DNA from: Actinotalea subterranea
GTDB lineage: Bacteria; Actinomycetota; Actinomycetes; Actinomycetales; Cellulomonadaceae
Direction: 5' to 3'
Length of the DNA: 64,000 bases
NCBI RefSeq assembly: GCF_008364845.1
Contig: NZ_VTTP01000001.1
Coordinates: forward strand, 148,827 to 212,826
Part shown: piece after piece, positions 6,244 through 54,021 of the stretch
How positions within the stretch are numbered: position 1 is the first letter of the stretch
Layout: each line of letters starts with the position of its first letter
Notes under the pieces: generated by a model
What the model saw: only the letters and a program-made list of their open reading frames with translations
Databases searched by the model: none
What the model was told of the DNA's origin: nothing
Position numbers and translations under genes: made by a program

Positions 6244-6278
6244 GCGCCGCCCGGGTCCCTCCACGACCCGGGCGGCGC
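6244..6278 (+). terminator. Hairpin between EIIC and ptsI
   Basis: A perfect 14-bp G+C stem (6244-6257 with 6265-6278) and a 7-base loop, without a U tract. It would separate or attenuate EIIC-ptsI read-through. Confidence 0.6.
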
Positions 6279-49050: not shown

Positions 49051-50867
49051 CCGACGAACCAGTTGCGGAGCATCGCGGCACGCGCCTCGAGCTGTTCCGC
49101 GCTCGCGAGGGCGACCTCGGGTCCCCCGCAGCGACGCCGCAGCTCCGTGTGGACGGTTCCGTGCGGCTGCCCGCTGCGTCGCGACCACGCGCCGACGAGC
49201 GCGTTGAGCTCCTTGCGCAGCTCCGTGAGCTTGCGGTGGTCGACGGCAGGGGCGCGCGCCGCCCGGTTGGACACCTGGTCGGCCTGGCGCTGGCGGAGCA
49301 GGAGCGTGACCTGATCGGCGTCGAGCAGGCCGGGGAGCCCGAGGAAGTCCTGCTCCTCGTCGGAGCCGACCTCCGCACCCGTGCCGAACTCGCCGCCGTC
49401 GAACAGCACGCGGTCGAACGTGGCCTGCGCGTCGAGGGCCTGGAAGGTCCCTGCGACGCCGTCGGACCCGACGGCGTCCGGCCCGTCGGCGCTTCGGTTC
49501 GCGTCGGCGAGGAGCCCTGCCTCGGGGTCGTACTCGGCCTCGTCCGTCGCGGGGCGGTCGAGCGCGTGGTCGCGCTCGAGCTCGAGCGTCGCGGCGAGCT
49601 CGAGGAGCTGCGGGACGCTCGGGAGGAACACGGAGGCGGTCTCGCCGCGGCGTCGGACCCGGACGAAGCGCCCGACCGCCTGCGCGAAGAACAGGGGCGT
49701 CGCGGTCGACGTCGCGTACACACCGACGGCGAGCCGCGGTACGTCGACGCCCTCGGAGACCATGCGGACGGCGACCATCCAGCGTGAGTCGCCCGCCGAG
49801 AACGACTCGATGCGGTCGGAGGCGCCGTCGTCGTCGGACAGCACGATCGTGGCCGACTCCCCGGTGATGCGGCGCAGGTGCCCGGCGTAGGCGCGCGCGT
49901 CGGCCTGGTCGGTCGCGATCACCAGCCCACCCGCGTCCGGTACCGAGCGGCGCACCTCGGACAGGCGCCGGTCGGCCGCGGCGAGGACCGACGGGATCCA
50001 CTCGCCCTGTGGGTCGAGCGCCGTGCGCCACGCCTGCGCGGTCAGGTCCTTGGTCATGGCCTCACCGAGGCGGGCACTGACCTCGTCGCCGGCGCGCGTG
50101 CGCCAGCGCATGTGACCGCTGTAGGACAGGAAGATCACGGGCCGCACGACGCCGTCGCGGAGCGCGTCGCCGTACCCGTACGTGTAGTCGGCGAGCGAGC
50201 GACGGATCCCGTGCTGGTCGGGCGCGTACGTGACGAACGGGATCGGGGCCGTGTCGGAGCGGAATGGCGTGCCCGTGAGCGCGAGGCGGCGGGTCGCGCC
50301 GCTGAACGCCTCACGCACGGCGTCGCCCCAGGACAGCGCGTCGCCTCCGTGGTGGACCTCGTCGAGGATGACGAGGGTGGGCGCCGCGGTCGTCCGAGCC
50401 GCGTGCAGGGCGGGCTTGGTCGCGACCTGCGCGTAGGTCAGTGCGACGCCGTGGAAGCCCGCGCCGTGGCGGCCCTGGCTGTTGCGGAAGTTCGGGTCGA
50501 GGTGGACCCCGACCCGTGCCGCCGCGTCGGCCCACTGGCGCTTGAGGTGCTCGGTGGGGGCGACGACCGTGACGCGCCGCACGATGCCCCGCTCGAGCAG
50601 GTCCGTCGCGACACGCAGCGCGAAGGTCGTCTTGCCCGCGCCCGGTGTCGCGACGGCCAGGAAGTCCCGCGGTTCACGTGCGTCGTAGGTCGCGAGCGCG
50701 GCCGCCTGCCAGGCGCGCAGCTTGTTGGCGGTACCCCACGGCGCACGCCCCGGGAAGGCCGGCGGGAGGTGCGATGCGGCAGCAGGGGATGGCGCGTGCA
50801 CAGCGGAGTGCGCCCCGGTGACCTCCGGGGTGAACGACTGCCGTGCCGCGTTGCTGTGCGGGCTCAC
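49041..50867 (-). CDS. DEAD/DEAH-box superfamily 2 helicase
   Basis: A 608-aa helicase. After a 45-residue disordered start: LRAWQAAALATYDAREPRDFLAVATPGAGKTT (Q-motif region and Walker A), VILDEVHHGGDALSWGD (motif II, DEVH), LALTGTPFRSD (III), MVSEGVDVPRLAVGVY (V) and QAVGRFVRVRR (VI). The C-terminal 170 residues (DRPATDEAEYDPEAG onward) are outside the helicase core. GTG overlaps the DUF3039 stop by GTGA. Paired with DUF3039, it is conserved in actinobacteria; its nucleic-acid substrate is unknown to me. Confidence 0.92.
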   Translation of the reverse strand: MSPHSNAARQSFTPEVTGAHSAVHAPSPAAASHLPPAFPGRAPWGTANKLRAWQAAALATYDAREPRDFLAVATPGAGKTTFALRVATDLLERGIVRRVTVVAPTEHLKRQWADAAARVGVHLDPNFRNSQGRHGAGFHGVALTYAQVATKPALHAARTTAAPTLVILDEVHHGGDALSWGDAVREAFSGATRRLALTGTPFRSDTAPIPFVTYAPDQHGIRRSLADYTYGYGDALRDGVVRPVIFLSYSGHMRWRTRAGDEVSARLGEAMTKDLTAQAWRTALDPQGEWIPSVLAAADRRLSEVRRSVPDAGGLVIATDQADARAYAGHLRRITGESATIVLSDDDGASDRIESFSAGDSRWMVAVRMVSEGVDVPRLAVGVYATSTATPLFFAQAVGRFVRVRRRGETASVFLPSVPQLLELAATLELERDHALDRPATDEAEYDPEAGLLADANRSADGPDAVGSDGVAGTFQALDAQATFDRVLFDGGEFGTGAEVGSDEEQDFLGLPGLLDADQVTLLLRQRQADQVSNRAARAPAVDHRKLTELRKELNALVGAWSRRSGQPHGTVHTELRRRCGGPEVALASAEQLEARAAMLRNWFVGRR

Positions 50868-51253
50868 CGTCCGCCGGTGCTGCCGGGACCACCGGCGCCG
50901 GGACCGCCCGGGCCACCGGGCCCGCCGGATCCTCCGGAGCCGTTGGCCCCGTCGCCGTCCTGCGGCTCACGCAGCCCGTCGTAGATCTCCTTGCAGATGG
51001 GGCACACGGGGAACTTGTTCGGGTCTCGACCCGGCACCCACACCTTGCCGCACAGCGCGACGACGGGGGTGCCCGAGAGGGCCGAGCTGAGGATCTTCTC
51101 CTTGCGCACGTAGTGCGCGAACCGCTCGTGGTCGCCGGGCTCGATCTCCTCCCGGAGCTCGGTGCGCTCGATGACGCTCGTCGAGGTCCCCGCGCCACCT
51201 GGAGACCCGTACGGATCGTCCGGACCGGTCGCTGGGGGCATCGGCTCGCTCAT
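50864..51253 (-). CDS. DUF3039-family protein
   Basis: A 129-aa protein. The conserved core is HERFAHYVRKEKILSSALSGTPVVALCGKVWVPGRDPNKFPVCPICKEIYDGL, containing four cysteines (LCGK, CPIC) that could bind zinc. The C-terminal 35 residues are Gly/Pro-rich. TAGACT lies seven bases before ATG 51253, so translation is leaderless. It overlaps the helicase gene, indicating a joint function, perhaps as its adaptor (inference). Confidence 0.88.
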   Translation of the reverse strand: MSEPMPPATGPDDPYGSPGGAGTSTSVIERTELREEIEPGDHERFAHYVRKEKILSSALSGTPVVALCGKVWVPGRDPNKFPVCPICKEIYDGLREPQDGDGANGSGGSGGPGGPGGPGAGGPGSTGGR

Positions 51254-51260
51254 GCCGACG

Positions 51261-51266
51261 AGTCTA
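51261..51266 (-). promoter_or_regulatory. -10 box TAGACT of the DUF3039-helicase operon (leaderless)
   Basis: TAGACT, seven bases, then ATG 51253 on the minus strand. Confidence 0.6.
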
Positions 51267-51350
51267 CGTCGCCCCACCGACGCTCCCGCGGCGCACCCCG
51301 AGCCTTACCGCTCTGCCCCGCCACCGGCCCGGCACCGTCGGCCCAGCCAC

Positions 51351-51404
51351 CCGGCACGCCCGGCACGCCGGCACGCCCGGCACGCCCGGCACGCCCGGCA
51401 CGCC
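51351..51404. repeat. 9-bp tandem repeat (CCGGCACGC)
   Basis: Six units of CCGGCACGC, one short by a base, immediately left of palindrome element 1. Non-coding. Confidence 0.75.
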
Positions 51405-51415
51405 GCCCGATCATC

Positions 51416-51481
51416 GAGGTCGACATTCCGCGTCGAGGTCGACACTCCAGCGTGTCGACCTCGACGCGAGATGTCGACCTC
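51416..51481. repeat. 66-bp nested palindrome, element 1
   Basis: Arms 51416-51445 and 51452-51481 pair at 28 of 30 positions around a six-base centre. Each arm holds GAGGTCGACA twice, separated by nine bases (TTCCGCGTC on the left). It lies 34 nt beyond the stop codon of the DUF559 gene and 150 nt before the DUF3039 promoter. Confidence 0.92.
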
Positions 51482-51515
51482 AGCGACAGGCGGAGGGCGG
51501 GACCGGTGGACTGGG

Positions 51516-52811
51516 TCACGGGCGGGTCCGGGCAACGGACGGACGGCCGAGGTCCCGCGGACCCTCACGGGTCCGGGCGACGGGCGAAAGGCCGACGTCC
51601 CGGGATTCGGAGGGGCCCGGGCGACGGGACGGACGGGATCCGGGCTTGGGGAGCGACTCAGCCCCCTGCCGCTGCGCCGCGCGGCGGCACGCGGACCGGA
51701 CGCGACGCACGAGTGCGTCGGGATCCCGCAGGTCGGACCAGGTGACGCGCAGGACCATCCACCCTGCTTCCTCTAGCGCGTCCTGTCGCCGCTTCTCTGC
51801 GAACACCGCCTCCGGTGCCGTCGATCCGAGTGCGCCGGAGTACTTGACGAATCCGTCGAACTCGATGGCCAGGCGCGCAGCGACGAGGCCGAGGTCGATC
51901 CGGAAGACACCGAGCCTCGTCACCACAGGAACCTGCGTCTTGACCGCGTCGAACCCCGCCGAAGCAAGGACCCATCGCGTCAGCGACTCCCCCGGCGACT
52001 CGGCGCCGGCATCCGCGAGCTCCACGACCAGGCGCGCACGGCGTATGCCGCGGTGTCCGGCACGCAGGTCCATGAGTCGCACCATGCGGTCGCGGTCGGC
52101 GCCGCGACGCAGGGCTCCGTCGGCGATGACCAGCGCCCGATCCGGAGCGATCGCCGCCGCACAGTCGATCACGGTGCGCTCGAGGGTCGTCACCGGTAGC
52201 CCGGCCACCACGGTTCGCTCGTTCGACGGCGGCAGGCCGTGGTGGCGCACGAGCTGCGGGTCGCCGCGGCGGTTGGGCCGGTCCGCCTGGATGATGTGGG
52301 TCCGTGTGGGCGTCGGCCACACAGCGCAGCCCCACACCAGCGCGGCCGACTCGTGGCTGAACACGAAGGGGATGCGCAGCTGCTGATGCACCGCTTCGAT
52401 CGTCGCGAGTGTGAGCTGGCCGCCCGCCCGGTTGTCGCCAGCCAGGTCGGCAGCTGCGACGTACGCCCCGCGGCGCAGCTGCCGAACAGCCTGGGCGGTG
52501 CGCCTCCGGCGGAGGTCAGCCGGGTCGACGTCGCGGGCCAGCAGCACGGCGGGCGCGTCCGACAGCTGCGCAGCCCGCGACACCACGCCGTCCGGCCCAC
52601 GGGTGACGAGCTGCGCAGTCGTCGCTGCGCGGGTCGATGCGGCACCGCCGGGCGGCTGCCCCGGCCGCTCTCGTGGCTGCGCGACCGCGGATCCGGGTGG
52701 CAGCGAGCTCGTGTGCGCCCGCGACGAAGCCGCGGACTGATCCCCACACCCGCCGGTCGCGGAGCACGATGACGGCGAGGGGCCAGCAGAGGACCTGTCG
52801 GACGGCGCCAT
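51516..52811 (-). CDS. DUF559 (VSR-like nuclease) protein with AbiEi-like N-terminal domain
   Basis: A 431-aa protein. A winged-helix-like segment (RRRRTAQAVRQLRRGAYVAAADL) resembles the N terminus of AbiEi-type antitoxins. The C-terminal DUF559 domain, of PD-(D/E)XK/VSR fold, shows FRIDLGLVAARLAIEFDGFVKYSG (D and ExD active site) and FAEKRRQDALEEAGWMVLRVTWSDL. About 60 extra N-terminal residues and a 45-residue Arg/Pro-rich tail are outside the domains. ATG 52811 has GACCCT six bases upstream; GTG 52583 is an alternative. No AbiEii partner is adjacent. Both sides carry a 66-bp palindrome. Confidence 0.75.
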   Translation of the reverse strand: MAPSDRSSAGPSPSSCSATGGCGDQSAASSRAHTSSLPPGSAVAQPRERPGQPPGGAASTRAATTAQLVTRGPDGVVSRAAQLSDAPAVLLARDVDPADLRRRRTAQAVRQLRRGAYVAAADLAGDNRAGGQLTLATIEAVHQQLRIPFVFSHESAALVWGCAVWPTPTRTHIIQADRPNRRGDPQLVRHHGLPPSNERTVVAGLPVTTLERTVIDCAAAIAPDRALVIADGALRRGADRDRMVRLMDLRAGHRGIRRARLVVELADAGAESPGESLTRWVLASAGFDAVKTQVPVVTRLGVFRIDLGLVAARLAIEFDGFVKYSGALGSTAPEAVFAEKRRQDALEEAGWMVLRVTWSDLRDPDALVRRVRSACRRAAQRQGAESLPKPGSRPSRRPGPSESRDVGLSPVARTREGPRDLGRPSVARTRP

Positions 52812-52985
52812 GCCGCGAGGGTCTCCCACCTTCAGCGCACGCCGGCCGGGTGTCCGCCGGGCCTGTGGACGACGTCGACGGGGCTGTGGCCTCGGCACGT
52901 CACCGCGTCGACCGCCCGGACACGGATCGCACCGCCGGCCCCACGCCGCCGTCGGCGCGCTCCCTCCCCACCCCGCCCGACCGCT

Positions 52986-53051
52986 GAGGTCGACACTTCC
53001 TGCTGAGGTCGACACGCCGGAGTGTCGACCTCAGCAGGAAGTGTCGACCTC
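52986..53051. repeat. 66-bp nested palindrome, element 2
   Basis: Arms 52986-53015 and 53022-53051 pair perfectly over 30 bp around the six bases GCCGGA. Each arm has GAGGTCGACA twice, separated by CTTCCTGCT. It lies 174 nt upstream of the DUF559 start. Otherwise 52812-53235 holds no gene I can support. Confidence 0.95.
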
Positions 53052-53098
53052 GACGTCCGGGGCGGGGGTGCGGGCGGGGGTGCGGGGCGGTGGCGCCG

Positions 53099-53175
53099 CG
53101 CGGGGGCCGGGGCGCGCGGCGCGGGGGCCAGGGCGCGCGGGGCGCGGGCTAGGGCACGCGGGGCGTGGCGGGCTC
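53099..53175. repeat. 21-bp G-rich tandem repeat, about 3.5 units
   Basis: Units starting at 53099, 53120, 53141 and 53162, near CGCGGGGGCCRGGGCGCGCGG. Non-coding, between palindrome element 2 and the nagB stop. Confidence 0.7.
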
Positions 53176-53235
53176 GTCGGAGCGCGGCTGGGAGCCCGGC
53201 GCCGGGCCGGCGCGGGGCTCCCGTCGGCGGTCGGG

Positions 53236-54021
53236 CTAGAGGCCTTGCCAGGCGGGCTTGTGGCTCCAGGTCTGGCGGTAGTAGTCGGCGAGCTGGAGGC
53301 GGCTCGCGGCACCCTCGTCGAGCAGGACGGTCACGTGCGGGTGGTGCTGGAGCACCGTCGCGGGCCACAGGGCGCTCACGGGACCCTCGACGAGCTGGTG
53401 CACGGCCTCGGCCTTGGCGCGGCCGGTCGCGACGAGCACGAGGTGCCGGGCGCCCATGATCGTGCCGAGGCCCTGGGTGAGGACGTGGCGGGGCACGGCC
53501 TCGACGTCGCCCGCGAAGAAGCGGGCGTTGTCCTGCCGCGTCTGCTCGGTGAGCGTCTTGACGCGGGTGCGGGACGCGAGGGACGAACCGGGCTCGTTGA
53601 ACGCGACGTGCCCGTCGGTGCCGATGCCGAGGATCTGGAGGTCGACGCCGCCGGCGTCGGCCATCGAGCGCTCGTACGCCGCGCACGCCGCGATGAGGTC
53701 CTCCGCCCCGCCCGCGGGTGCCTGAACGGAGCCGGGGGCGAAGTCGACGCGGGAGACCAGCTCACGCTCGATGACGTTCCGGTAGCCCTCGGGGTGGTCG
53801 GCGGGAAGGCCCACGTACTCGTCGAGGAGGAATCCCCGCGCGCGGGCGAAGGACAGGCCCGACTCGGTGTGCCGCCGCACGAGCTCGTCGTACACGGCGA
53901 GCGGGCTGGACCCGGTCGCGAGGCCGAGGACCGCGTCGGGCTTGCTGCGCAGCAGCTGCTCGACTGCGTCCGCGGCCAGTCCTGCCAGGTACTGGCTGGA
54001 CGGGTGGATCACGACCTCCAT
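53236..54021 (-). CDS. nagB: Glucosamine-6-phosphate deaminase
   Basis: A 261-aa isomerase/deaminase converting glucosamine-6-P to fructose-6-P and ammonia. Motifs: VLGLATGSSPLAVYDELVRRH (phosphate loop), FLLDEYVGLPADHPEGY with the catalytic aspartate, LGIGTDGHVAFNEPGSSL with the active-site histidine. Its 5' end overlaps the ROK kinase by 13 nt. Last gene of the ABC-ROK-nagB operon and the meeting point with the phosphotransferase pathway. No nagA is in the window. Confidence 0.97.
   Translation of the reverse strand: MEVVIHPSSQYLAGLAADAVEQLLRSKPDAVLGLATGSSPLAVYDELVRRHTESGLSFARARGFLLDEYVGLPADHPEGYRNVIERELVSRVDFAPGSVQAPAGGAEDLIAACAAYERSMADAGGVDLQILGIGTDGHVAFNEPGSSLASRTRVKTLTEQTRQDNARFFAGDVEAVPRHVLTQGLGTIMGARHLVLVATGRAKAEAVHQLVEGPVSALWPATVLQHHPHVTVLLDEGAASRLQLADYYRQTWSHKPAWQGL

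Follow-up and report, generated by a model that had tools for sequence, protein, structure and literature searches.

A nuclease-like gene bracketed by its own palindromes in Actinotalea subterranea: a probable REP/RAYT-like system of unrelated parts

The locus, its palindromes and its protein

Actinotalea is a member of the Cellulomonadaceae, and the genome of A. subterranea considered here is a 4.03 Mb draft in 28 contigs. Within the window, by which is meant the whole stretch of 64,000 nucleotides that was analysed, a nuclease-like gene lies between a DUF3039 gene and a gene for a glucosamine-6-phosphate isomerase, and is accompanied on either side by a nested palindrome. The open frame of the gene extends to 53015, past the GTG start that is placed near 52583. 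The features are as follows.

50864 to 51253, reverse strand: flanking gene, DUF3039 (PF11238, E 2.4e-30)
51254 to 53235, no strand: interval from the DUF3039 gene to the isomerase gene, containing the unit (1,982 bp)
51416 to 51481, no strand: downstream four-box nested palindrome (boxes 51416-51425 and 51435-51444 on the forward strand, 51453-51462 and 51472-51481 on the reverse strand)
51516 to 52583, reverse strand: nuclease-like gene, AbiEi-type part plus Vsr-like endonuclease part (stop at 51516; putative GTG start near 52583)
51693 to 51959, reverse strand: MTES_1575/Vsr-like endonuclease part of that gene (core residues 202-290)
51996 to 52535, reverse strand: AbiEi-model part of that gene (core residues 10-189; PADLOC AbiEi E 7.8e-14)
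52986 to 53051, no strand: upstream four-box nested palindrome (boxes 52986-52995 and 53005-53014 on the forward strand, 53023-53032 and 53042-53051 on the reverse strand)
53236 to 54021, reverse strand: flanking gene, glucosamine-6-phosphate isomerase, nagB-like (PF01182, E 1.5e-22)

The first-pass annotation had described two 66-base elements with a shared nested architecture and arm pairing of 28/30 (51416-51481) and 30/30 (52986-53051), and both the description and the re-computed pairing values agree with it. Each element consists of four GAGGTCGACA boxes, two forward and two inverted, at offsets 0/19/37/56. The downstream palindrome begins 34 nt past the stop codon of the nuclease-like gene, and the upstream one lies 424 bp from the conserved protein core, the largest such distance among 62 genes of this kind. 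All eight perfect GAGGTCGACA matches in the window fall inside the two palindromes; when one mismatch is allowed the count rises to 24, where 10.2 are expected, and none of 100 shuffles reaches it. A short tandem array of CCCGGCACG-like units (51350-51405) adjoins the downstream palindrome.

The gene between the elements had been called DUF559 nuclease-like. The bracketing stands; in Pfam this gene has a match to MTES_1575 at E 1.4e-6, under the curated cut-off, and a non-significant one to DUF559 (E 0.092). Among 67 aligned members of the family, Pfam at E <= 0.01 recognises MTES_1575 in 30, AbiEi_4 in 25, AbiEi_1 in seven and DUF559 in six; PADLOC AbiEi models match all 67, and D223, E234, D236, K240, Y241, E256 and R259 are invariant. 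A profile search of PDB sequences with the protein gave nothing significant. Foldseek was run on the AlphaFold2 model (mean pLDDT 94.8), with Rv2827c (1zel), an AbiEi-type antitoxin, as the sole match at E < 0.001 (3.9e-4), AbiEi 6y8q at E 0.017, the I-Bth0305I catalytic domain (3r3p) at E 0.03 with probability 1.00 and TM 0.74-0.75 by target length, and Vsr (1cw0) at E 0.08; the endonuclease matches overall span E 0.03-0.19, and the AbiEi and endonuclease entries are interspersed with some chance-like mitoribosome matches. The signature of a Y1/HUH tyrosine transposase is absent from the protein, for which Pfam (67 members) and the fold point to AbiEi-type and Vsr-type parts. From profiles and a modelled fold, the protein is predicted to combine a DNA-binding part of AbiEi type with a Vsr-like endonuclease. 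The source genome carries a second MTES_1575 domain, within a 1609-codon open frame (L007, G000:C11:521973-522251).

A box that differs from gene to gene

Two tandem GAGGTCGACA boxes occur in only eight of 221 genomes of the family. A pattern search for them returned two further copies in the source genome, away from its only close homologue of the nuclease-like gene, and others in three more members of the genus, in one of which (G011) two GAGGTCGACA-type copies bracket a different gene, read from its sequence as SPFH-type. Judged by this GAGGTCGACA-only scan, the tie of the palindromes to the nuclease gene could have been put down to chance, a view overturned once the box was left free. A first covariance model built from 12 elements with two GAGGTCGACA boxes recovered elements of like architecture but other boxes throughout the family, and a finder that requires four equal boxes in the fixed geometry, whatever their sequence, showed many homologues in other genomes of the genus to be bracketed, each with its own box. 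The first-pass annotation had proposed a search of related genomes; with the box allowed to vary, homologous elements were found there flanking homologous genes. The box is equal to the left and right of one gene and different between genes, with a consensus of CGAGnTCGnnn in which positions 5 and 9-11 are the most variable.

The extent of the bracketing was assessed in 79 homologues, 19 of the genus and 60 of other genera, the latter a non-random set of one gene per genome, selected manually from the strongest of the matches listed. A joint left/right score of at least 70 was obtained for 62 of the 79 genes and of at least 68 for 65, and 67 was the maximum for 117 mock genes set at other positions within these loci. 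The mock genes are the real control, since reversed sequence gives nearly equal counts with a symmetric geometry and is worthless for the purpose. Of the 14 genes below 68, three lie near a contig end (L058, L179, L209). At a stricter threshold for single elements, both elements were found at 36 of the 60 non-genus genes, and about 520 kb of flanking DNA held eight others. Across the 62 genes the downstream element starts a median of 14.5 nt past the stop codon, and in 16 of them it overlaps the frame's end; on the upstream side about 150 bp separate the element from the conserved protein core. Eight more distant homologues served as a paralogue control, of which seven reached at most 67 and one (L075) 70, a score read as due to a tandem repeat. 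A further homologue, L069, was kept out of this control; it has scoring elements on both sides (42 on the right, 37 on the left), and the edge of the bracketed clade is therefore not sharp. A split gene (L067/L074) stands outside the 79, with elements scoring 42 on both its sides.

Beyond the family, 54 of 396 sampled genomes of the phylum, the source genome included, contain a homologue at E <= 1e-30, and five of 29 loci from the strongest matches reach a joint score of at least 70 with quite different boxes, the rest falling below that level at this spacing. The design of the element outside the family may be variable. At one more distant homologue (L338, G424), inverted repeats sharing GATCAAGAGGTTTG lie on both sides (1240-1293 and 2541-2606) with another spacing. 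A plasmid collection yielded one weak match.

The symmetry of the elements extends beyond the boxes. With the seven elements of unequal spacing set aside, 117 of 124 remain; 67.8% of the positions in their inter-box segments are paired, as compared to 33.9% when shuffled, and the left and right elements of one gene share 69% of inter-box positions versus 33% for random genes (n = 57). The first-pass annotation had noted compensatory change between the two window copies, and the same holds in the wider family: when 42 elements, each from a different gene, are aligned without gaps, every one of the 33 pairs has changed on both sides, with 81.8% of cells paired against 57.4% in shuffled alignments and 32-37% when slid. 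The G-U share of non-Watson-Crick cells is 16.3% and 15.6% is expected, and this lack of excess argues, at the level of sequence, for a constraint acting on DNA symmetry or a DNA hairpin rather than on an RNA hairpin.

Solo copies, residence of the unit and empty loci

A generic model derived from the 42 elements, with hits counted on both strands, matches in 37 of 38 genomes searched. When 57 solo copies, lying away from the cis units, were compared with the boxes of nuclease genes, agreement with the box of the own genome averaged 8.64 of 11 positions versus 6.83 when permuted, the maximum of 1000 permutations being 7.75. This set leaves unused eight of 28 newly added loci (L226 near a cis unit, L228 cis, and L237-L242 without an assigned genome); L279 was excluded as a cis copy, and for L223 and L260 there is no cis gene scoring at least 70. 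The cis box of the own genome ranks among the best three of 59 for 30 of the 57 copies and does not for 27; over the full length, 29 are closest to the cis element of their own genome and 28 resemble a foreign one at least as much. Orphan palindrome families, with no matching gene, are common. In four genomes (G207, G162, G014 and G203) ten of 12 copies are 91-99% identical to the cis element, the other two being 85% and 59% identical, and by eye the likeness of the near-identical copies stops at the edge of the element, with unrelated flanks.

Palindrome abundance follows the gene. The median number of hits is 43 in 36 genomes with the gene and two in 22 without a match (p 3e-8), in a non-random sample in which the 36 were chosen for their cis units, the model was trained on such units, and the 22 comprise 20 of the gene-less genomes, those that had been listed (18 more lay outside the list), together with G200 and G214, which likewise gave no gene match. 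Three genomes (G077, G095 and G026) have 58, 44 and 32 hits, yet no gene match at E <= 1e-30. The G077 assembly is fragmented and six of its hits fall in the first 140 bases of contigs (C223, C259, C328, C158, C345 and C89), beginning within the first 61; the cognate gene may therefore be unassembled, as if the palindromes broke short-read assemblies.

Solo copies lie mostly between convergent genes. Among 69 classified copies, 46 are between convergent genes, 19 between codirectional genes and four between divergent genes, as compared to an intergenic background of 21%, 55% and 24%, respectively; these 69 were classified by their predicted neighbours out of 104 copies, of which 13 overlap a predicted gene and 22 are near an edge, with six loci skipped as cis and the copies of sister genomes non-independent. 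At one position behind a gene (L176, in G076) five orthologous loci have no copy, and these are clean empty sites. The box of the L176 copy is that of the right-hand element at the unit gene of G076, where a left element was not found, and the relatives have, by eye, another hairpin-like sequence behind the place of the copy. No target-site duplication was obvious by eye at elements inspected with their flanks in five genomes, the flanks being G+C-rich.

Several further arrangements of palindromes were encountered. At L183, L184 and L190 they alternate with tandem copies of one neighbour gene whose copy number differs between close species. The indel distinguishing L184 from L190, where a palindrome copy sits next to these tandem duplicates, was considered as evidence of insertion and set aside, because deletion is as likely there as insertion. 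The source genome also holds copies with another box, CGAGGTCGGCC, at positions 6262 and 6397 of L044 (G000:C11, about 588.3-588.4 kb) and in L278 (G000:C6:27694), one of which adjoins a tandem array of forward boxes; these form a second palindrome family for which no cognate gene is known. In G074, tandem +--- arrays of a related box with 17/20/20 spacing occur on two contigs (L042 4860-4940 and L043 1907-1990) and may be the termini of a different mobile element. Inspection of the L043 open reading frames by eye revealed no transposase.

The unit itself is mostly found at a limited number of places. Of the 60 non-genus units, 51 belong to 11 groups of loci with shared flanks, and at orthologous loci (160 pairs) the unit protein has a mean identity of 56.9% versus 78.6% for the best-scoring flanking frame per side, a choice that biases the comparison toward conserved neighbours, with the unit protein the more divergent in 155 pairs. 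In the protein tree none of six tested locus groups is an exact clade; five fall in clades of four to 20 members with one to ten extra, among them the nagB-DUF3039 group of ten, which lies within a clade of 20 (support 0.978) that includes another locus group, and one group of seven units spans the whole tree (support 0.067) and forms no clade. The tree thus fits inheritance at the locus only in part. The correlation of box distance with protein distance is small (r 0.20) and was equalled in none of 2000 permutations; mutual information between box and protein positions picks out a few scattered residues, with no region of the protein standing out.

Loci lacking the unit were found where the first-pass annotation had suggested looking, in the syntenic intervals of relatives. 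Of 30 loci read around DUF3039, 11 have the isomerase gene adjoining and no unit found. The unit is present at two, those of the window and of G094, and at the other 17 no isomerase gene was located within reach. The gap between the two genes at the 11 unit-less loci is 65-124 bp in ten and 337 bp in one, against 1,982 bp in the window.

A proposed REP-like way of life and its alternatives

The closest parallel is provided by the REP/REPIN elements and their RAYTs, REP-associated tyrosine transposases related to IS200/IS605. In Nunvar 2010 (PMC2817692), RAYTs are described as always flanked by two inverted cognate REPs with which they coevolve, as diverging faster than their neighbours at conserved positions, and as correlated with the abundance of the cognate REP. 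REPs are placed behind genes, and between unidirectional and convergent genes, in Di Nocera 2013 (PMC3733652), which also describes CGTC-tagged REPs as palindromic repeats behind genes without a dedicated transposase; REPIN persistence is treated in PMC8049555. The system described here resembles these in having a gene flanked by two inverted cognate palindromes (62 of 79 genes), box and protein that coevolve, an enzyme diverging faster than its neighbours at orthologous loci, dispersed copies that are tied in part to the cognate gene (for 30 of 57 the own genome is among the top three of 59), and a location behind genes and between convergent genes. It differs in its enzyme, which is of AbiEi-Vsr type and not a Y1/HUH transposase, and in its element, which consists of four boxes spaced 19/18/19, their sequence specific to the gene, and is found in Actinomycetes. 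The CGTC-tagged REPs share with it palindromic repeats behind genes, and have another tag and other hosts. No common GTAG or CGTC tag adjoining the palindrome was seen by eye in elements with flanks from five genomes, and the words Actinobacteria and Cellulomonas are absent from the main text of PMC3733652.

Since the box changes with the protein across species and related copies occur elsewhere, the system looks to be of REP type with a different, unrelated enzyme. We consider it probable, at roughly 0.63 on sequence evidence, that an AbiEi-Vsr-type protein and its own palindromic target make up a REP/RAYT-like system of unrelated parts. The AbiEi-like winged-helix part would read an 11-bp box, with four protomers on each nested palindrome, a natural model because Rv2827c is reported (PMC7319586) to bind four inverted repeats of its own promoter at once. 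The C-terminal part would act as a Vsr/I-Bth0305I-like PD-(D/E)xK endonuclease, and the gene would carry two copies of its own target, one per side. The protein may cut at or near such palindromes, and repair or replication of the break would seed and maintain solo copies of 66-68 bp, intergenic and mostly behind genes. Protein and box would change together, so that each genome has its own palindrome families, and the unit would mostly be inherited at a few loci, sometimes lost and rarely moved. The small mobile or self-maintaining unit that the first-pass annotation had entertained gains support from the cognate brackets on homologues, the unit-less relatives, the solo copies and the clean empty sites.

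The same annotation had alternatively read the pair as terminators or operators. This is the weaker main explanation because there is a copy behind the gene, there are solo copies and G-U pairs are not in excess; alongside the main reading, the AbiEi-like part could plausibly confer autoregulation. One form of it supposes that the AbiEi-like protein represses itself through the boxes and that solo palindromes are operators of other genes, a regulon for which the AbiEi-like part in 67 of 67 members and the four promoter repeats that Rv2827c reportedly binds simultaneously (PMC7319586) are suggestive. It is nonetheless unlikely, given a second copy that follows the stop codon at a median distance of 14.5 nt (62 genes), solo copies that avoid divergent promoters (4/69), near-identical copies with unrelated flanks, empty sites, and invariant acidic residues in the endonuclease-like part. 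As bidirectional transcription terminators or mRNA 3' stabilisers, repetitive by chance, the elements would be expected where they are, as long palindromes that lie at 3' ends and where convergent genes meet; we regard this as highly improbable, however, as G-U cells are no commoner than chance, no T-run was seen by eye in the flanks of elements from five genomes, the relatives at the L176 site retain another hairpin-like sequence behind the place of the copy, and the box changes together with the nuclease.

The palindromes might belong to another mobile element, moved by a Y1 transposase or other enzyme encoded elsewhere, with the nuclease gene captured between two copies. Orphan palindrome families, and genomes with many copies and no gene match, are in keeping with such a capture, which is quite unlikely when brackets with a box of their own accompany 62 of the 79 homologues, 11 groups of orthologous loci take in 51 of the 60 non-genus units, and palindrome abundance tracks the gene. 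The gene could otherwise be a homing endonuclease gene whose product cuts the empty intergenic locus, the palindromes serving only gene control. The resemblance of the C-terminal part to I-Bth0305I and the presence or absence of the unit at the nagB-DUF3039 locus would suit homing, but it is very unlikely in view of boxes that covary with the protein and are also present in solo copies, and of units that mostly remain at conserved loci.

The components of the proposed REP-like system have their own relatives. By profile and fold the N-terminal part resembles AbiEi and Rv2827c, antitoxins of AbiE type IV toxin-antitoxin systems, and Rv2827c is also alike in its binding of several inverted repeats, as reported in PMC7319586; unlike these antitoxins, the protein here has an endonuclease-like C-terminal part, with palindromes on both sides of its gene and as solo copies. 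That part is predicted to share the fold and the conserved acidic residues D223, E234 and D236, together with K240, of Vsr/DUF559/MTES_1575 endonucleases, and its modelled fold is likened to the catalytic domain (3r3p) of I-Bth0305I, a Vsr-like homing endonuclease, from which it differs in that the putative target accompanies the gene in two copies and is also found in solo ones. Integron attC sites are also four-box imperfect palindromes in which structure is kept more than sequence; here, the box sequence is tied to the neighbouring nuclease gene. No description of such a nuclease with such elements was found in searches of open-access literature, subscription journals being mostly outside their reach. 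Neither the enzyme nor the element is related to its counterpart, RAYT or REP, and in logic alone the system is of REP/RAYT kind.

To our knowledge REP/RAYT systems are the only ones described so far in which a cellular nuclease gene has cognate palindromes populating the whole genome. It appears somewhat better than an even chance that Actinomycetes harbour a second, independent origin of REP-like palindrome populations, in which a protein that unites an AbiEi-type reader with a Vsr-type endonuclease spreads and maintains its own target and the specificity of the box is repeatedly re-written at conserved loci. If true, this would be a convergent case with an unrelated nuclease, and such a way of life would not be peculiar to Y1 transposases. 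It would likewise place proteins whose only annotation is DUF559, MTES_1575 or AbiEi in a biological context, and the dozens of natural pairs of protein and target would be a source for reading a DNA recognition code.
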